Position numbers and translations under genes: made by a program. The notes below the pieces were generated by a model. That model ran no database searches. It was not told the origin of the DNA and saw only the letters and a list, made by a program, of their open reading frames with translations. From contig CAJQTG010000004.1 in the NCBI GenBank assembly GCA_905618925.1, positions 1-64,000 of the forward strand: a DNA stretch of 64,000 nt. The letters run 5' to 3'. The stretch is from an uncultured Candidatus Thioglobus sp. GTDB taxonomy: Bacteria; Pseudomonadota; Gammaproteobacteria; PS1; Pseudothioglobaceae. Of this stretch, positions 55,408-64,000 are shown piece by piece (position 1 is the first letter of the stretch; the number at the start of each line of letters is the position of its first letter).

Positions 55408-57255
55408 ATGTGCGGAATTGTTGGTGGCGTTACAAATAAAGATATTACAACACTTTTATTAGAAGGGTTAAATCACTTAGAATATAGAGGTTATGACTCA
55501 TCTGGACTTATAGTCTTATCTAAAAATAATATTTTTGATCGAGCAAGGTCAGTTGGTAAGGTTAAAAACCTTGAAGACAATTTAAAGGCAAGAGATAATA
55601 AAATTAAAGGGAATATTGGAATCGCTCACACACGTTGGGCAACTCATGGTGAGCCTACTATTAATAATGCACACCCTCATATATCAATGAATTCAGTAAG
55701 CTTGGTTCATAATGGCATTATTGAAAACTACGTTGAACTTAAAAATGACCAATTAACCAAGGGTTACACATTTGCTTCTGAAACTGATACTGAAGTTATT
55801 GCCCATGCAATTGACTTTGCCATGAAATCATGCAGCACTTTAATATCATCAGTCCAACTAGCAATTAAATCTTTTTCTGGGTCCTATGGACTGGGAATTA
55901 TTTCATCTAAATATCCAGATCAAATTATTGCTGCAAGAAAAGGCTCACCTTTAGTAATAGGAGTTGGAGTTAATGGAAACTATATTGCTTCTGATCAAAT
56001 GGCTCTTTTATCTGTAACTAAAGAATTTATTTTTCTGGAAGAGGGAGATATTGCCGAAATAAAAATAGACAAAATTACTATTTATGACTTAGATGGTAAT
56101 TTAGTTGATCGCCCTATCAAGACCTCTAATTTAAAACCCGGTCAAACGGATTTAGGAAATTATGATCACTTCATGCAAAAAGAAATTTTTGAGCAGCCTC
56201 AAGCAATACGAGACACATTAGAGTCGCGTATTACAAATGACTCTGTTTTGATTTCAGCTTTTGGAGATAAAGCTGAGGAAATTGTTAGTAGAATTAAACA
56301 GGTTCAAATTATTGCGTGTGGTACAAGCTATAACGCAGGACTAGTTGCCAAATATTGGCTAGAGGACATAGCAAAAATCCCATGTAATGTAGAAGTAGCA
56401 AGTGAATATCGTTATCGTCACCCCATACTTTTAAATAACACTCTTTTTATTACCCTTTCACAAAGTGGTGAAACAGCAGATACAGTTGAGGCTCTTAAAA
56501 CTGCCAAGAAAATTAATAATAATATTTCTACTCTTTGTATAACCAATTCTGCAGAATCAAGTTTAACGAGACTTTCAGACTTAATATTTTTAACTCATGC
56601 TGGCCCTGAAATTGGTGTTGCAAGCACAAAATCATTTACTACTCAGCTTGTTTCTTTAGCGCTTTTAACTTGCTCTATTGGCAAAATTAAACAAGTCATT
56701 AATAAGAAGCAAGAAAGAGAGATAGTTGATGGTCTAAAAAGACTACCTGGACTTATTAATGAGGCTCTTCTTCAAGAAACACAAATTAAGAAGCTGGCAA
56801 TTCGCTTTAAAACCAAAAATAGTGCGCTATTTCTTGGAAGAGGGACAATGCATGCTATTGCTATGGAAGGGGCCCTTAAGCTTAAAGAAATTAGCTACAT
56901 ACATGCTGAAGCATACCCTGCAGGAGAATTAAAACATGGCCCTATCGCACTTATTGACAAAGACATGCCTGTAATTGCTATTGCACCGAATGATGAGCTT
57001 CTTGAAAAATTAAAATCTAATTTACAAGAAGTTAAATCTAGGGGCTCTCAAATGATTGTTTTTGAGGATGAAAATTCAAAAGTTCAGGAATTGGAAGCAA
57101 TGGAAGTTATCCCAATTACTTCAAATCTTGGCCGTATTACAGCTCCAATTATCTTTACAATACCCTTGCAGCTCTTAAGCTACCATGTTGCACTCATTAA
57201 AGAGACTGATGTAGATAAACCAAGAAATTTAGCTAAATCCGTCACGGTGGAGTAG
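55408..57255 (+). CDS. glmS: Glutamine-fructose-6-phosphate aminotransferase
   Basis: GlmS makes glucosamine 6-phosphate, the first step to UDP-GlcNAc for peptidoglycan and LPS. The 615-residue protein has the N-terminal Cys nucleophile in MCGIVGG, THTRWATHGEP-type glutaminase loop, two SIS sugar isomerase domains (CGTSYNAGLVAKYW, ITLSQSGETADT, LGRGTMHAIAMEGALKLKEISYIHAEAYPAGELKHGP), and the invariant C-terminus PRNLAKSVTVE. Its stop is the exact left border of the accessory element. AT-rich boxes 10-35 bases before the ATG may be its promoter. Confidence 0.97.
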   Translation: MCGIVGGVTNKDITTLLLEGLNHLEYRGYDSSGLIVLSKNNIFDRARSVGKVKNLEDNLKARDNKIKGNIGIAHTRWATHGEPTINNAHPHISMNSVSLVHNGIIENYVELKNDQLTKGYTFASETDTEVIAHAIDFAMKSCSTLISSVQLAIKSFSGSYGLGIISSKYPDQIIAARKGSPLVIGVGVNGNYIASDQMALLSVTKEFIFLEEGDIAEIKIDKITIYDLDGNLVDRPIKTSNLKPGQTDLGNYDHFMQKEIFEQPQAIRDTLESRITNDSVLISAFGDKAEEIVSRIKQVQIIACGTSYNAGLVAKYWLEDIAKIPCNVEVASEYRYRHPILLNNTLFITLSQSGETADTVEALKTAKKINNNISTLCITNSAESSLTRLSDLIFLTHAGPEIGVASTKSFTTQLVSLALLTCSIGKIKQVINKKQEREIVDGLKRLPGLINEALLQETQIKKLAIRFKTKNSALFLGRGTMHAIAMEGALKLKEISYIHAEAYPAGELKHGPIALIDKDMPVIAIAPNDELLEKLKSNLQEVKSRGSQMIVFEDENSKVQELEAMEVIPITSNLGRITAPIIFTIPLQLLSYHVALIKETDVDKPRNLAKSVTVE

Positions 57256-57262
57256 TATTGAG
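57230..57262. other. Candidate left attachment site at the glmS 3' end
   Basis: The last conserved glmS codons (KSVTVE) and stop are followed immediately by sequence of different style, without the normal terminator. The reading frame of the next gene runs backward through the glmS stop region with no start codon. This fits integration using the 3' end of glmS as target, as genomic islands and Tn7 do. No Tn7 end sequence (TGTGGG) is visible here and the matching right repeat lies outside the window. Confidence 0.45.
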
Positions 57263-57592
57263 GACATTCTACCACCCTTCCCTCATGTAAAAAAACCTGA
57301 AGATTTAATCATAACCTTTGATGTAAATCTAAAGACACAAGTATTAACAAGATTCAGAAAATCAAAACGATTTGAAGATACCCATAACCTCATTAATAAA
57401 CTTCATGAAGAAGGAATGGGTAATAAGGAAATATCAAATTACCTCAATTCCCATAATATCAAAACACCAACAGGAAAGGATTACACAAGACAACTCATTG
57501 GAATGTATTTCTATAAATCAAGAAAAATAAATAGAAGATTAAAACATTCAGAACTAAAAATAACTAACATTAAATTTTGGTTTCCTGATTAA
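57257..57592 (+). pseudogene. 5'-truncated HTH protein, serine-recombinase-like C-terminal pattern
   Basis: The frame is open from just after glmS but has no ATG, GTG or TTG until the ATG at 57416. The segment LINKLHEEGMGNKEISNYLN and then SHNIKTPTGKDYTRQL is the 'eG.s.keIa..Ln..gi.tp.Gk' pattern found in HTH parts of recombinases and phage regulators. About 111 codons remain before the stop. The missing 5' part could have been cut off at integration, or it may lie at the other end of the element. I cannot name the family with certainty. Confidence 0.45.
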
Positions 57593-57615
57593 CAAACCCT
57601 AGTAGAATGGTAAAT

Positions 57616-57999
57616 ATGAAAAAACTACCAACAATTTTATTTGGATTAATTGTTACTCTAATCTTGACAGGTTGTGGTCCTACCAATCAATTATTACAGG
57701 ATGGGTATTATTATAAAGATATTGGTGGATCGTCATGTCAAAGTTATGATGTTGTTACCCCTGGGGAAATCAAATGTTTTGATAAAGATGGTAAATTTAC
57801 TTACAGTCAGAATTCTATGACAGAACAAGAAGTATTAGTTTGGAAGGTAGAAGAAATGGAAAGTAAAGTTCAATCATTACAAATCCAACAAATGTTTAAC
57901 AACATCAATCAAAATAATAACAATAACCAACAAAACAATAACAACCTTTATAACAACAATAACTTTATTACTACTTGTCCTTGGTGGGACATCTGTTAA
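57616..57999 (+). CDS. Small lipoprotein with Asn/Gln-rich tail
   Basis: A protein of about 127 residues with a lipoprotein signal: KKLPTILFGLIVTLILTGC, cysteine at about residue 20 as the lipidation site. The mature part includes DGYYYKDIGGSSCQ and EVLVWKVEEMESKVQ, a short helix, then a low-complexity stretch of asparagine and glutamine and a final CPWWDIC. The function is unknown. I start at the second ATG (MKK), three codons after the ATG at 57607, because it gives a standard signal. It could be an outer-membrane lipoprotein of the element. Confidence 0.6.
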   Translation: MKKLPTILFGLIVTLILTGCGPTNQLLQDGYYYKDIGGSSCQSYDVVTPGEIKCFDKDGKFTYSQNSMTEQEVLVWKVEEMESKVQSLQIQQMFNNINQNNNNNQQNNNNLYNNNNFITTCPWWDIC

Positions 58000-58005
58000 T
58001 TAATT

Positions 58006-58503
58006 ATGAAAATGAAAAAGTGTCGTCACTGTTCAGAAGAAATCCTACATTCAGCAAAGGTATGTCGTTTCTGTAAAAAGAAAACGGAAAAAAGTAACAT
58101 CTTATTAAACATGATAGGGTTAGGTGTTCTTGTATGGATTACTTACGGATTGTATCAACAAGGTTATTTTGATGGTTTATTCAATGGATCATCTTCAAAC
58201 AGTATAGGAAGTATTGAAGAAACAACCTGTACTGATCTTCAAGAATACACAATTGGTGAAAAACTTACGGATGGAACAGATACTTGGGAAATCTATGACA
58301 TAAGGGATTCTAAAGAAGAATCCAGAACAAATAATGAACTAGTTTGTATTGGTGAGTTAATGTGGGATGGAGTTAGTGGTGTTCACTTAAGAATGGAATT
58401 ATCTGAGAAAGGTGGGAAACAATGGTATGACTATAGAGTTGATGATGAGTTCATAACCATACTAAAACAGTTTGCTGACATGGTCGATGGAGATCTTAAC
58501 TAA
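58006..58503 (+). CDS. Zinc-ribbon membrane protein of unknown function
   Basis: A 165-residue protein starting with a zinc ribbon: CRHCSEEILHSAKVCRFCKKK, two CxxC knuckles within the first 25 residues. One membrane helix follows (LLNMIGLGVLVWITYGLYQ, about residues 34-52). The remaining 100 residues are outside, with a cysteine in TTCTDLQEYTIGEK and another in ELVCIGELMWDG that could form a disulfide. No named family is recognised. It lies 6 bases after the lipoprotein gene, so the two may be one transcript. Stop-to-stop overlap with the next gene is 8 bases. Confidence 0.6.
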   Translation: MKMKKCRHCSEEILHSAKVCRFCKKKTEKSNILLNMIGLGVLVWITYGLYQQGYFDGLFNGSSSNSIGSIEETTCTDLQEYTIGEKLTDGTDTWEIYDIRDSKEESRTNNELVCIGELMWDGVSGVHLRMELSEKGGKQWYDYRVDDEFITILKQFADMVDGDLN

Positions 58504-58957
58504 CCAATTCTAGTAATAAATCCAATACAACCCTACAATTTCTTTCAGTCATAATCACTACTGATTTAACATAACCATCATTGTCAACATTCACAACATA
58601 ATCACATCTTTTATCAGTACCGATACCATTGGTATTCAATTCCTTTATTAGATTGTATGATGGTACTTCCCAGTTTTCAACAATCCTTTGTAGATCCAAT
58701 GGATGTTGTTTTTCAACATAGTCAATAATCTTTTCTTCGAAGTAACTTAAATCAACATTCATATGATGTCGATTTGGTTGTACTTCCATCTCAACCCCAT
58801 TCCACATATCAATACTAACCATATCTAATGATCTTAGATCATCAATATGGATCTTATCTGTTACTTGGATACTATCCATTCTTATCATTCCCATTCTTAC
58901 TGTCCTCCATTTGTATTTATTAGATTGTTGGTATGTAAAGATATTCCTTAATACCAA
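58496..58957 (-). CDS. Hypothetical protein of the accessory element
   Basis: I do not recognise this 153-residue protein. It is acidic to neutral, with RTVRMGMIRMDSIQVTDKIHIDDLRSLD near the N-terminus and NVDLSYFEEKIIDYVEKQHP in the middle, and alternates strand- and helix-like stretches without membrane segments or cysteines in clusters. A possible later start is the ATG for MGMIRMDSI. It is the only minus-strand gene between the lipoprotein pair and the HUH gene, and its end overlaps the convergent zinc-ribbon gene by 8 bases. Confidence 0.5.
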   Translation of the reverse strand: MVLRNIFTYQQSNKYKWRTVRMGMIRMDSIQVTDKIHIDDLRSLDMVSIDMWNGVEMEVQPNRHHMNVDLSYFEEKIIDYVEKQHPLDLQRIVENWEVPSYNLIKELNTNGIGTDKRCDYVVNVDNDGYVKSVVIMTERNCRVVLDLLLELVS

Positions 58958-59037
58958 TTAAAAAAGATTGTTCTGGAAACACTAATTTGTATAAATATAT
59001 TTTATATATATGAAGTATTTATAGATTTGGGGGTTTT

Positions 59038-59496
59038 GTGTTGTTGTTGAGTGAACAATTAAAAATTGATGTTAAAAATTATTTGATTAACTTTGATGTT
59101 AATAATTCCTTTGGTGTCACCCTCACCCTTCAACAAGGAATTAAGAATCAAAAATTAGATAAGATTTCATCTTCACAAAACCTTAGACATTTCCTTAATG
59201 TCCTAAACCAAAAATGTTTTGGTAATCAATCTAAAAGATTTAACAAAAGATTGAAAGTATTACCAGTAATAGAAAGATCAAGTGGGAAAAGGTTACATTT
59301 TCATCTAACCCTAGAAAATCCTTTTCCCAATGATCCCAATAGGTTTTCCTATTTGATTAATTCTGTATGGAAGAAAACCAAATTTGGTCATAACCATATT
59401 CATATTAATTCAAATATTGATGAAGGTTGGAATGACTATATTACCAAGTTTGATCATAAGGATGATGAAGTAGATTGGATGAATTTCCATAGTTAG
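59038..59496 (+). CDS. HUH-type single-strand DNA endonuclease (Rep-like)
   Basis: A 152-residue protein with the three rolling-circle Rep motifs in order. Motif I is GVTLTLQQG near residues 26-34, motif II is H87-F-H89 in RLHFHLTLEN (the HUH metal site), and motif III is Y134 with K137 in WNDYITKFD (YxxK, the nicking tyrosine). Such enzymes nick one DNA strand and stay covalently attached. It has no helicase domain. It starts with GTG after a G-rich ribosome site. The relation to RAYT transposases or inovirus/plasmid Reps is not settled. Confidence 0.72.
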   Translation: MLLLSEQLKIDVKNYLINFDVNNSFGVTLTLQQGIKNQKLDKISSSQNLRHFLNVLNQKCFGNQSKRFNKRLKVLPVIERSSGKRLHFHLTLENPFPNDPNRFSYLINSVWKKTKFGHNHIHINSNIDEGWNDYITKFDHKDDEVDWMNFHS

Positions 59497-59591: not shown

Positions 59592-59903
59592 ATGTATAAA
59601 ACTAAACAAAACATAATCAAAGATCTAAACCAATATCATAATATTCTTAACTTCTTTATTAACTATTCCAGTAACTTATTAAAGAAGAAACATATATTAA
59701 GAAAACAACAATTACTTGAAGTTAAACATTACCTTATCACTAAAGGTCATTTACATTCTAAATACCATTACAGGTTATTAAATAGTTTTCTTAAACAAGA
59801 AAAAAATCTTAATTATATAAATATAACTGAACAACTCTATTCACTTGAGTTATTCAAGAAACAAAAGAAACAAGAACCACAATCCTATACTTTACCCATT
59901 TAG
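59592..59903 (+). CDS. Basic hypothetical protein
   Basis: A 103-residue protein, very rich in lysine, asparagine, leucine and tyrosine, predicted mostly helical (NIIKDLNQYHNILNFFINYS and LLKKKHILRKQQLLEVKHYL). The charge suggests nucleic acid binding, but no named fold is recognised. It is 95 bases after the HUH gene and 12 bases before the ribbon-helix-helix gene on the same strand, so these three could be one operon. Confidence 0.45.
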   Translation: MYKTKQNIIKDLNQYHNILNFFINYSSNLLKKKHILRKQQLLEVKHYLITKGHLHSKYHYRLLNSFLKQEKNLNYINITEQLYSLELFKKQKKQEPQSYTLPI

Positions 59904-59915
59904 AGGAAACAATTA

Positions 59916-60185
59916 ATGACCAACACCACAATGATGACAATGAACATTCCTAATCAAATTAAAGATGACTTCAAAACTGTATGTACATTTAACCAATCAA
60001 CAATGACATCTGAAATTGTAAGATTTATCAATAACTACATTTCACAAGAACATATTAAATTGAAACAATATCAAATCAGTAGTAAAGAATTGAATGAATT
60101 GAAACAAAGGAAACTAACACCAAAAACCCATTTCCATCCTCAACCTAGATCAATGAATCAAAAAACATGGGAAAACAGTTATTGA
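59916..60185 (+). CDS. Ribbon-helix-helix (CopG/Arc-like) DNA-binding protein
   Basis: An 89-residue protein. The first 45 residues fit a ribbon-helix-helix: a short strand (TMMTMNIPNQIKDDF), helix A (KTVCTFNQS) and helix B (MTSEIVRFINNYISQEH). The C-terminal half is basic and proline containing. It probably represses element genes or controls copy number, in the manner of CopG next to Rep genes of rolling-circle plasmids. It follows the HUH and basic genes on the same strand. Confidence 0.65.
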   Translation: MTNTTMMTMNIPNQIKDDFKTVCTFNQSTMTSEIVRFINNYISQEHIKLKQYQISSKELNELKQRKLTPKTHFHPQPRSMNQKTWENSY

Positions 60186-60273: not shown

Positions 60274-60543
60274 ATGATGACCTTAAAACGAAATATAGAA
60301 GAAAACCAAGATTACCTTGAAGAGGGGTTAAATCTAAGAACTGTATCTGGGGTAGTTTTGGTTGGAAAGATCCAAGGAAACAACAAACAACTAAAATCCA
60401 TTAGTTTAGTTAATCCTGAAAACGGACAGATTGACCCAACAAAACTTCAAAAGAAATTAGATCTTCTATCAGATCAAAATTTATATCTATCAATTCTTAC
60501 TGGATCACTTCAATTGTTGGGGAAGGGGAAAGGTAGAAGGTAG
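60274..60543 (+). CDS. Hypothetical protein
   Basis: An 89-residue protein of unknown function. It has a predicted strand-rich start after a charged N-terminus (RTVSGVVLVGKIQGNN), the segment LKSISLVNPENGQIDPTKLQKKLDLLSD, and ends with a glycine- and lysine-rich GKGKGRR tail. It lacks cysteines and membrane helices. It is 10 bases upstream of the NERD gene on the same strand, which suggests joint transcription with it. Confidence 0.5.
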   Translation: MMTLKRNIEENQDYLEEGLNLRTVSGVVLVGKIQGNNKQLKSISLVNPENGQIDPTKLQKKLDLLSDQNLYLSILTGSLQLLGKGKGRR

Positions 60544-60553
60544 AATACCTTTT

Positions 60554-61300
60554 ATGTTGAAAGGTTGGTTTGGGGAACAAAAAACAGAATTTAATTTATG
60601 GTTTAGTTTGGATAAAAAACTTTACCGTCGTTTCCATGATGTCATCATCCCATCTTCTAACGGTACAACACAAGTAGATCATATTCTTGTATCACCATTT
60701 GGATTGTTCATAGTTGAAACAAAAAATAAAACAGGATGGATCTTTGGATCTGAAACCCAATCTAAATGGACACAAGTTATTTATGGGAAAAAGTATTACT
60801 TTCAAAATCCTCTAAGACAGACACATAGACATAAAAAAGTATTATCTAAATTCCTTGATGTAAATGAATCAAATATTGAAACGGTGGTTTACTTTAATGG
60901 TAATTCTGAATTCAAAACTGAACTACCTTCAAATGTCTTATCTTACGGATTAGGTTCCTACATCAAACAATTCAATGAAACAGTTTTGTCTAATGATGAA
61001 ATTGAAAGGATATGTAATTTGTTAATTAATAATGAAGGTAAGATTTCAAAACAAGAACATCTTCAATCATTACATGACAGACATACATCTGATACTGTTT
61101 GTCCTTCATGTGGATCTGACTTAGTTGAAAGAACAGTTAAACAAGGATCAAGAACAGGTAACAGGTTTTTAGGATGTAGTAGTTATCCTAAATGTAAATT
61201 TTCAAAAGACATTAAAGTCAGTTATGAAAAAAGGAATCCTATTAATATTTGGATTGTAATCTTGGTTGTGATTGTTTTAATTGGTTTATCACAGATCTAA
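60554..61300 (+). CDS. NERD-domain nuclease with topoisomerase-type zinc ribbon and C-terminal membrane helix
   Basis: A 248-residue protein in three parts. Residues 1-110 are a NERD domain: GWFGEQ with E8, QVDHILVSPFGLFIVETKNK with D42 and E55-x-K57, and W72 and NPLRQ further on; this restriction-fold nuclease core should cut DNA. Residues 183-214 are a topoisomerase I-type zinc ribbon with C183, C186, C208 and C214. A hydrophobic segment (IWIVILVVIVLIGL) near residues 231-247 may anchor it. Its end overlaps the next, convergent gene by 12 bases. Confidence 0.83.
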   Translation: MLKGWFGEQKTEFNLWFSLDKKLYRRFHDVIIPSSNGTTQVDHILVSPFGLFIVETKNKTGWIFGSETQSKWTQVIYGKKYYFQNPLRQTHRHKKVLSKFLDVNESNIETVVYFNGNSEFKTELPSNVLSYGLGSYIKQFNETVLSNDEIERICNLLINNEGKISKQEHLQSLHDRHTSDTVCPSCGSDLVERTVKQGSRTGNRFLGCSSYPKCKFSKDIKVSYEKRNPINIWIVILVVIVLIGLSQI

Positions 61301-61720
61301 ATAATCTTTGAATTCTTCCTTAACATCAATACCAACTTTATTAGTTAGGTATTCATAAACATTGACGATACAGTCATAATAAATATCAGATAAGAAGTCA
61401 CTAATCAGATCATAATCTTTATGACCTGAATCAACCCACCATCTTGAATGTGGATCTTCTTCAACTTCATTCATTAGTTCAGAATCTAAAAACCTCAGAT
61501 AGTGTTTTTCTACATACATAATCCTGTGAATTAACATATGTAATGATTCGTCAAATGAACCATCTACTTTATTCATATAAAAGGAATCATCTGAAAATTT
61601 TGTATTGACCTTGTAATGAACAGTAGTTGATGACCAACCACCTGAATTTTCATCAAGAATCGTTGTCAATTCTTGTGTAACAAATCTAATTATTGAATGT
61701 TTAACAAAGTTATTCAACAC
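61289..61720 (-). CDS. Hypothetical protein coupled to the DNA polymerase gene
   Basis: A 143-residue acidic protein without a recognised family. Features are the start FVKHSIIRFVTQELTTILDEN, an aromatic and acidic middle (VEEDPHSRWWVDSGHKDYDLI) and a helical end (DFLSDIYYDCIVNVYEYLTN). Its start overlaps the DNA polymerase stop by 11 bases, so it is very likely translated with it. This position suggests a role connected with the polymerase, such as a regulator or accessory factor, but nothing in the sequence proves it. Confidence 0.55.
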   Translation of the reverse strand: MLNNFVKHSIIRFVTQELTTILDENSGGWSSTTVHYKVNTKFSDDSFYMNKVDGSFDESLHMLIHRIMYVEKHYLRFLDSELMNEVEEDPHSRWWVDSGHKDYDLISDFLSDIYYDCIVNVYEYLTNKVGIDVKEEFKDYLDL

Positions 61721-64000
61721 AAACCACCCTCTGACTCAATTCACAATCTTTATATTGTACAGAATCCAGATTCAATGTACTTTTCGTTGGTAAGAAATCC
61801 TCAATCACTAAATCAGGGAACACCAATCGTTTAACAAGATCTAATTTATCCCTTGTTAGTTGGGTATTTGGTGTTGAATGTTTTTCAAATGATGATTTCT
61901 TCCTATCATTATCAACATCTGACTTCTTACAAGGTATTCCCACAACATCATTTAATAGATATGTTAATTCTTTAGATGTTAGTTTTTTATCTTTGAAGAT
62001 GTATTTGGTCAATGGTGGTGGTGGGTTGTGAGGATAGTTATTAGTAGTTCCTGATCTTCTATGTTTATGTGAAACAATAAGATCCCTTCGTAACCGTATC
62101 AAGTCACCATCCTTCTTCTTCAAATACTTTTTGTTACTACTTGATAGTGATAGATTGGATTCAACATAGTTATTAAAATTTTGATAATCATCCATTGTCT
62201 TAAGACAATGATAACCCCCTTGATTATATTGATTCCATAACTCTCTGACCGTTAGAAAATCCTTGACCGATTCCCATGGTGTTGTTGAAAAGAAAAGATG
62301 ATTCTGATCAACAGTATCTTTATATTTGACGTTACTCATACCAACGAATAATGGTTTCCTTTTCCAATCGAATTCCATTGATAACCGTTTCTTCATATCC
62401 TTATGAACAAAATCGTAACCACCACGATATAAATCCTTAATACCTAACCCTAAAGTCATAGGTATTTGATCTGTTGGTTTCCTATGAAAGAACAATCTAA
62501 TGATTTCATCATTTTCTTCTTCCTTACCTAGAACATTTGGTAACTTGATTCCAGATTTTGCTAGGACAATCTTTTCATCATCCTTTGGTTTGGATGACCA
62601 ATCAGAATCAATGGATGGTTTTAATGTTGATTGACCTCTTGTCCTCCAACCTAGTAATTGTCTGACCTTATGTTTACTTTCAATCACATCATCCTTATTA
62701 ACCAACTTATCCCTACCATCCCTAAAGTAATTACACAAAACCCCATGAATCGAATCATCCATTTGTTGTTGTGTTGAATTGGTTAGGAATCCATCTGTCG
62801 TTACTGAAAACACATTTACATCAGATGGAAGATTATTCATGATCTCACCCAGTACCCCTCTGGAAAACGAAGTAATAAATGAAGAATAGATTGAATTTGT
62901 TATTTTGGATTCACCCAACTCTTTAACCCTATCACTTTTGAGATCATATACCCTTCGTTCCCTTAACCCTTGACCTGTTTTTCCATATATAGAATTCGAT
63001 ATTTCTTTCCAAAATAGATTCTCAACAGTTTTCTTCTTATGTTGATTCCTATTTTCTGAACAGTTCTTTAAGAATTCCCTAAAGATTCTATTGTTCTTAT
63101 CCTTAAATCTTTCTGATTCCCATGTCCATCCTTCAACCAATGTTAATTTACATCCTAATTTTTTAGACAATAGGATTTCAGATATATGACAAACAGATTC
63201 ACCAGTTTTTGGGAATATGATTCCTTCTTCTGTTCTTACTGGTAGTGTTGGATACCTTACTGATTTAGGGAATTCAAATTTAACAAAACAATAAGTAAGA
63301 TCAACTGGTTTAGAATCTAACATATCTTTAGTATCTTTAAGGATCCTCATTGAATCCCAATCAGGTTTACCAATCAATGACATGATCGTAGGATAACAAC
63401 CACTCAAATCAAAATCTGTCCATTGATCTTGATGTGATTGTCCAAACCAAAATTGTTCGTTCCTACCACCATGATATGAATCTGTTAGAAAATCCTGTCG
63501 GTAATATAAATCTTGTCGGTACTGTTCTGTTTTGTTGGTTATGTATCGTTGATGTTTTGTACTATATTTCTTATAAGTTTTTACATACTTACCAATCACA
63601 TCTAATCGATCTAAACCAACATTCAACCAATGTTGTTCAAGAAGGGATACACCAATGGATGATAGTGTTAATGGTAATTTGAATTGTTTTGGTTTTTGAT
63701 CATGAACTTTGTAATTCAATCTGATTAACCTGTTAACCCATTTCTGACAGATCTCACTATCCCTAATTCCGTATTTCCTAAAACTATCCCAATGATTCTC
63801 AAGATAAGTTTTCATATGGGTTTTGATTTCTTTTTCTTCTATTGAATCTTTACCTAGTTTGACTTTCTCATATCCTAACACCAATCCTAGTTTTTCTAAT
63901 GATCCACCTTGTTGTGGTGATATGTGAAGGGTATCCCTGACCTTGATCCTTACTTTGATATCTTCATTTGTTTCTGAATCATTCAGATCAAACGGTAGAT
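61710..64000 (-). CDS. Family B DNA polymerase, piPolB/pipolin-like (N-terminus beyond window)
   Basis: The frame is open to the right edge, at least 762 residues, so its start lies outside. At the edge the text DTLHISPQQGGSLEKLGLVLG resembles the N-terminal exonuclease region. Numbering from the TTG at 63884: motif A DLSGCYPT (159-166, D159), motif B K293 and NSIYG (297-301), motif C SVTTDGF (D364) diverged from YxDTD, and RTRGQ (414-418) where the primer-independent group has, as I recall, KTRG in place of KxY. A PolB of protein-primed linear elements is the alternative. No TTG start should be trusted. Confidence 0.78.
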   Translation of the reverse strand, partial: LPFDLNDSETNEDIKVRIKVRDTLHISPQQGGSLEKLGLVLGYEKVKLGKDSIEEKEIKTHMKTYLENHWDSFRKYGIRDSEICQKWVNRLIRLNYKVHDQKPKQFKLPLTLSSIGVSLLEQHWLNVGLDRLDVIGKYVKTYKKYSTKHQRYITNKTEQYRQDLYYRQDFLTDSYHGGRNEQFWFGQSHQDQWTDFDLSGCYPTIMSLIGKPDWDSMRILKDTKDMLDSKPVDLTYCFVKFEFPKSVRYPTLPVRTEEGIIFPKTGESVCHISEILLSKKLGCKLTLVEGWTWESERFKDKNNRIFREFLKNCSENRNQHKKKTVENLFWKEISNSIYGKTGQGLRERRVYDLKSDRVKELGESKITNSIYSSFITSFSRGVLGEIMNNLPSDVNVFSVTTDGFLTNSTQQQMDDSIHGVLCNYFRDGRDKLVNKDDVIESKHKVRQLLGWRTRGQSTLKPSIDSDWSSKPKDDEKIVLAKSGIKLPNVLGKEEENDEIIRLFFHRKPTDQIPMTLGLGIKDLYRGGYDFVHKDMKKRLSMEFDWKRKPLFVGMSNVKYKDTVDQNHLFFSTTPWESVKDFLTVRELWNQYNQGGYHCLKTMDDYQNFNNYVESNLSLSSSNKKYLKKKDGDLIRLRRDLIVSHKHRRSGTTNNYPHNPPPPLTKYIFKDKKLTSKELTYLLNDVVGIPCKKSDVDNDRKKSSFEKHSTPNTQLTRDKLDLVKRLVFPDLVIEDFLPTKSTLNLDSVQYKDCELSQRVVCVE

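Follow-up and report, generated by a model that had tools for sequence, protein, structure and literature searches.

The family B DNA polymerase gene at the right edge of the analysed window, a stretch of 64,000 nucleotides that shares its numbering with contig G000:C4, is not a core gene but part of a mobile element of ∼9.8 kb at the 3' end of glmS. The combined motifs, leave-one-out profiles, maximum-likelihood (ML) tree and AlphaFold model support that the encoded protein is a primer-independent polymerase (piPolB) by descent. The element is likely an integrated pipolin-type element, the excised form of which would be copied by a nick of an HUH protein and de novo priming by piPolB.

In the window the polymerase frame (61710-63998, minus strand, 762 aa) runs off the edge. 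The contig extends to 69,495, past the window end, and completion with the sequence right of the window, as proposed in the earlier note, gave a full gene of 933 aa with an ATG at 64511, of which the window part (61710..64000, minus strand) encodes residues 172-933. All motifs listed in that note were recovered: motif A (DFDLSGCYPT, residues 366-375), motif B (KEISNSIYGKTGQG, residues 502-515), a diverged motif C (SVTTDGF, residues 569-575) and the RTRG motif (GWRTRG, residues 621-626). The exonuclease residues were located in ExoI (GFDTEY, 46-51), which lies in the N-terminal part beyond the window and was read from the completed gene, and in ExoIII (YGIRD, 247-251). D48 and E50 of ExoI and Y247 and D251 of ExoIII align with the conserved 3'-5' exonuclease residues of the relatives. 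The polymerase may also have a TPR2-like insertion: the spacing between motifs B and C is 53, compared to 57 in phi29 and 36 in Pol II, and phi29 polymerase could be aligned to the model over its length. The assignment to family B also held: the match of the window part to Pfam DNA_pol_B_2 (E=1e-14) and that of the protein to a profile of five plasmid-borne relatives (E=8e-93) exclude chance. In hmmscan against Pfam the full 933 aa gave no match at E<=0.1; the truncated protein and a relative (L051) did match, and the missing match is read as a HMMER filter effect and not as counter-evidence.

Relatives were identified by tblastn on Fusobacterium and Staphylococcus plasmids, including pSE-12228-03 (25-27% identity, E 1e-40 to 1e-26). 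A scan with an alignment of three sequences, run on 84,980 species genomes, yielded 25 loci, mostly in Alphaproteobacteria, the best of which belong to Roseobacteraceae and are 47-48% identical to the polymerase. A leave-one-out profile built from five plasmid-borne piPolB relatives matched the polymerase with E=8e-93 and protein-primed PolBs with E 1e-12 or weaker, and the profile of protein-primed PolBs matched the polymerase only with E 1e-10. A chromosomal PolB of the Pol II type was rejected, with a profile E of ∼2 for Pol II. In the ML tree, which was calculated without the characterised E. coli piPolB of proven activity, the polymerase nests among Rhodobacterales piPolBs (support 95/100), inside the wider piPolB group and apart from protein-primed and RNA/DNA-primed PolBs; the deep branches of this tree are long and thus less certain. 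Nearly all relatives in the alignment have TTDG, and most have [K/R]TRG, while DTDS takes the place of TTDG in phi29, PRD1 and E. coli Pol II. RTRG is found in the polymerase and most of its clade, and KTRG in S. epidermidis and Methylobacter. In piPolBs, KTRG replaces the KxY of other PolBs. The first Asp of motif C is absent from the polymerase, matching the piPolBs, which lack this residue and yet are efficient polymerases (PMC7544198).

The AF2 model of the polymerase (pLDDT 87) matched phi29 polymerase best, with Z 20.1 over 513 residues (41-711) at 12% identity. About 220 C-terminal residues of the model have no counterpart in phi29 polymerase, which has no such extension, retains an intact DTD and is primed by a terminal protein. 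The extension has the size expected of a piPolB: 293-392 residues follow motif C in C-terminally complete relatives, compared to 115-121 in phi29 and PRD1. That the protein is a protein-primed PolB of the phi29, PRD1 or casposon type, starting on a terminal protein, is extremely improbable. Its closest solved fold is indeed phi29 polymerase and Pfam DNA_pol_B_2 is a shared family, but profile and tree place it with the piPolBs, its motif C is TTDG and not YxDTD, the C-terminal residues are extra, and family searches of those element genes that lie in the window revealed no terminal-protein-like neighbour (terminal proteins diverge fast). Of the observations that the earlier note had named as speaking against a piPolB, neither placement among protein-primed PolBs nor a lack of exonuclease features was made, since the protein groups with piPolBs and carries the exonuclease motifs. 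From family membership only, we infer that the polymerase would synthesize DNA without a primer.

Sequence searches of the PDB with the polymerase, both single and profile, found no polymerase. In a phage collection the window protein had no match and L051 had weak matches to tectivirus polymerases only. Among viral contigs, a single-sequence scan found no relative of the polymerase and an alignment scan found one (L075). The tectivirus polymerase of Streptomyces phage Forthebois (L082 2095-4197) has ATDG in motif C and KSRG, features shared with piPolB. On a Pseudosulfitobacter plasmid (L046 7608-13152), an IS66-type insertion splits the piPolB gene into two pieces; this piPolB has matches in 30 Pseudosulfitobacter plasmid records.

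The features of the element and its site are listed in Table 1. The genome contains no copies of the 19-mer beyond the three listed. Over 24 bases the inverted ends match at 21, compared to a maximum of 16 among 200 random window pairs. Direct repeats around the element were limited to 12-15-mers of the kind expected by chance, no tRNA was found near it, and Rfam detected only two tRNAs in the window. Both recombinase genes are divergent from the polymerase gene. The serine recombinase reached 80.7 bits with the CcrB model, for which the cut-off is 900.

Table 1. Features of the element and its insertion site; positions beyond 64,000 lie on the contig, outside the window.
Feature	Position	Strand	Remarks
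glmS, host gene at the 3'-end site	55408..57255	+	
Left end, 19-mer GAGTAGTATTGAGGACATT	57250..57268	+	Contains glmS stop codon (VTVE-TAG)
Lipoprotein, accessory	57607-57999	+	
Zinc-ribbon-like protein, accessory	58006-58503	+	165 aa
Accessory protein	58496-58957	-	153 aa
Predicted HUH endonuclease (Rep, PF23343-like)	59038..59496	+	152 aa; HFH and YITK intact
Small protein of the 103-aa type	59592..59903	+	Between Rep and RHH, likewise in the G071 element
Ribbon-helix-helix (RHH) protein	59916..60185	+	Arc/CopG-like
Small protein	60274..60543	+	No family match
NERD nuclease-related protein	60554..61300	+	Topoisomerase zinc ribbon; homologs 74-75% identical in the G071 and G016 elements
143-aa protein	61289..61720	-	Overlaps end of polymerase frame; homolog in G006 (L031)
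piPolB-type family B DNA polymerase	61710..64511	-	933 aa; no internal stop or frameshift
Tyrosine recombinase	64729-65328	+	199 aa; PF00589 E 3e-17
Third copy of the 19-mer	65343-65361	+	Before the serine recombinase
Large serine recombinase	65369-67012	+	547 aa; nearest CcrB and XisF, well below cut-offs
Right end, perfect inverted copy of the 19-mer	67057-67075	-	

An open frame runs through the left end (window 57256-57593, SSIEDILPPFP...), is conserved in G010, G067, G068 and G071 and resembles a small recombinase-type domain that may be completed in the circular form. Further inside, the stretch 58804-59107 is ∼76% conserved in G006:C20 and G018:C58, which belong to two further genomes of the genus and in which it has other contexts. 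It matched no Rfam family and, as Rfam gave only the two tRNAs in the window, it is no listed RNA.

The 152-aa Rep matches PF23343 (REP_ORF2-G2P) at E 6e-6, just under the cut-off, and its HxH and YxxK residues (H87, H89, Y134 and K137) are invariant in 8/8 sequences. Its model (pLDDT 88.5) aligned best with SIRV1 ORF119, at Z 9.1 across 105 residues, followed by AAV Rep, at Z 8.8 across 121 residues, and Foldseek gave a best E of only 0.015. VIA-align also returned many ribosomal S6 chains with Z 7-7.7; the S6-type fold is a common arrangement, and therefore only HUH matches above these values were used. Since the Z values are modest, the HxH and YxxK motifs carry the weight. By motifs and Rep-nuclease fold, the protein is predicted to be an HUH single-Tyr endonuclease. 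Homologs of Rep are found near piPolB in 8 of 24 loci; those in L052, L054, L058, L059, L060, L062 and L071 are separated from it by ∼50 bases to 2.4 kb. RHH proteins recur beside Rep. The other 16 loci, some of them cut by contig ends, have no such Rep, which is therefore not universal. Within the host family, Rep occurs only in the window genome and in the related element of G071. No mention of a pairing of HUH Rep with piPolB was found in the literature examined; several key pipolin papers are outside it, and the pairing may already be noted there.

Among the 83 genomes of the order that were examined, which form a single family and of which 29 belong to the genus of the host, the polymerase is present in one and absent from the 82 others; in the class it is present in one of 369 genomes and absent from the 368 further ones. 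The earlier note did not expect such a polymerase in core genes here; to speak of core genes is misleading for a gene in a small mobile element. G071, from a different genus, has an end of this kind after glmS and then a Rep with a broken frame, a homolog of the 103-aa protein, RHH and NERD; this element closes with an inverted end and then GTTACTGTGGAATAG, which resembles the 3' end of glmS. In G016, NERD and a distant serine recombinase lie between inverted ends, followed by a glmS-like 3' end (GTCACTGTTGAGTGA). In G067 and G068, all that is left is the left end together with ∼88 residues from the C-terminus of the serine recombinase (79-80% identical). No polymerase was found in the elements or remnants of these four genomes, and the other family members have unrelated sequence after glmS. 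The PolB-less or remnant elements of G071, G016, G067 and G068 support a family of elements that use the 3' end of glmS, with piPolB carried by the copy in the window. If SCC elements (PMC10061031) are a guide, the displacement of a glmS-like 3' end would point to site-specific recombination at this place.

The PolB-less elements also imply that the polymerase is not needed for integration, and so lend some weight to another reading, in which piPolB is a repair or damage-tolerance cargo for host or element and the recombinases move the element passively, with no self-replication. PMC9710591 describes the role of piPolB as unclear and a function in damage tolerance as shown. This reading is nevertheless unlikely: piPolB recurs on small plasmids with relaxases and together with HUH Rep, which fits replication.

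The genome is a 70%-complete draft, and the piPolB element was seen in this one genome only. The host had been called SUP05-like in the earlier note; the sizes of order and family fit this, but rDsrA was not found in the incomplete assembly. At the right junction, a fragment of an Ig-like repeat (67069-67309) meets a truncated hydrolase at 67297-67309 of contig C4, and the junction may be rearranged or a chimeric assembly. The Ig-like fragment (240 bp; L002 6069-6309) is 87% identical to the end of contig C17; the alpha/beta hydrolase, which starts at 67297 and is 5'-truncated on C4, is intact in G028. Draft state and odd junction would both agree with a binning or assembly artefact that brought in an element of another organism. 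Such an artefact is very improbable, as the contig that links the element to glmS has genes typical of the family, and elements of the same design occur at glmS in other family genomes, with NERD 74-75% and serine recombinase remnants 79-80% identical.

Gene content, intact catalytic motifs, ends and site come directly from the sequence, and from these we infer excision and integration, nicking and self-primed copying. In the preferred scheme, the serine recombinase would excise the element and integrate it at the 3' end of glmS, a nick made by the HUH protein in the circular form would provide one 3' end, and piPolB would extend the DNA and begin the second strand de novo, which would make the copying of the element independent of the host primase. 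Integration events might be resolved or added by the tyrosine recombinase of 199 aa. Bearing against this scheme are the inverted ends, the single 70%-complete draft, the odd right junction and the 16 of 24 loci without Rep. The small HUH protein and its RHH partner could also serve conjugal mobilisation instead of replication, as relaxase and accessory protein, with piPolB making the complementary strand after single-strand entry into a new cell. Relaxases and MobC on piPolB plasmids, the RHH partners adjoining Rep and the second-strand synthesis proposed for SCC primase-polymerases (PMC10061031) are in line with mobilisation, but the matches of the small HUH protein are to initiators of replication (PF23343, SIRV1 ORF119), and we regard mobilisation as somewhat unlikely. 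More tentatively, and with some doubt, it is conceivable that glmS-3'-end cassettes of marine gammaproteobacteria with a Ccr/XisF-like serine recombinase gained an HUH/piPolB module for rolling-circle-like, primase-free replication, and that this module is general to proteobacterial pipolins.

A tyrosine recombinase is typical of pipolins, and att-like direct repeats, often at a tRNA, are typical of E. coli pipolins, though not universal. Work on the piPolB of pipolins was reportedly presented by Redrejo-Rodriguez et al. in 2017. With pipolin piPolBs (PMC7385651, PMC9710591) the polymerase shares TTDG, [K/R]TRG, the Exo motifs and the C-terminal extension, and the window element is likewise mobile and encodes a piPolB, the only gene common to all pipolins (PMC9710591), and a tyrosine recombinase. 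It differs in lying at glmS and not at a tRNA, in having inverted ends and not the direct repeats of E. coli pipolins, in its large serine recombinase and HUH Rep, in its size of about 10 kb, and in a host family that otherwise lacks piPolB (0/82 other genomes). The marine alphaproteobacterial piPolBs, including those of Rhodobacterales (L050-L054, L065), form the sister group with 43-48% identity (closest 48%); homologs of the tyrosine recombinase are found in L050 and L053 and of Rep in L052 and L054, but blastp found no homolog of the large serine recombinase at these loci.

According to PMC9710591, it is still to be clarified what piPolB does biologically, and in vivo proof is needed for the excision and integration of pipolins. 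The element packs piPolB, site-specific recombinases of both classes and a predicted nicking enzyme into ∼10 kb and offers a compact test case; it suggests how such elements may copy themselves, and the recurring HUH partner of piPolB makes for a concrete, falsifiable replication scheme. SCC and SCCmec elements (Ccr, PolA-SSB primases; PMC10061031) offer a parallel, as they too have large serine recombinases, insert where a housekeeping gene ends and bring their own priming polymerase, of the unrelated family A; such cassettes would therefore have recruited priming polymerases more than once. Membership of the window element in SCC was rejected, since the Ccr cut-offs were not reached, the site is glmS and not rlmH, and the polymerase is of family B; in this comparison no helicase was recognised in the window element. 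Tn7-like transposons at attTn7 occupy the same chromosomal spot at the glmS 3' end, but the window element has recombinases instead of a recognised transposition gene. In G010:C13 (L034 3739-5941), a formyltransferase and a polysaccharide deacetylase lie between the same inverted ends with no recombinase, and this is possibly a passive cassette.
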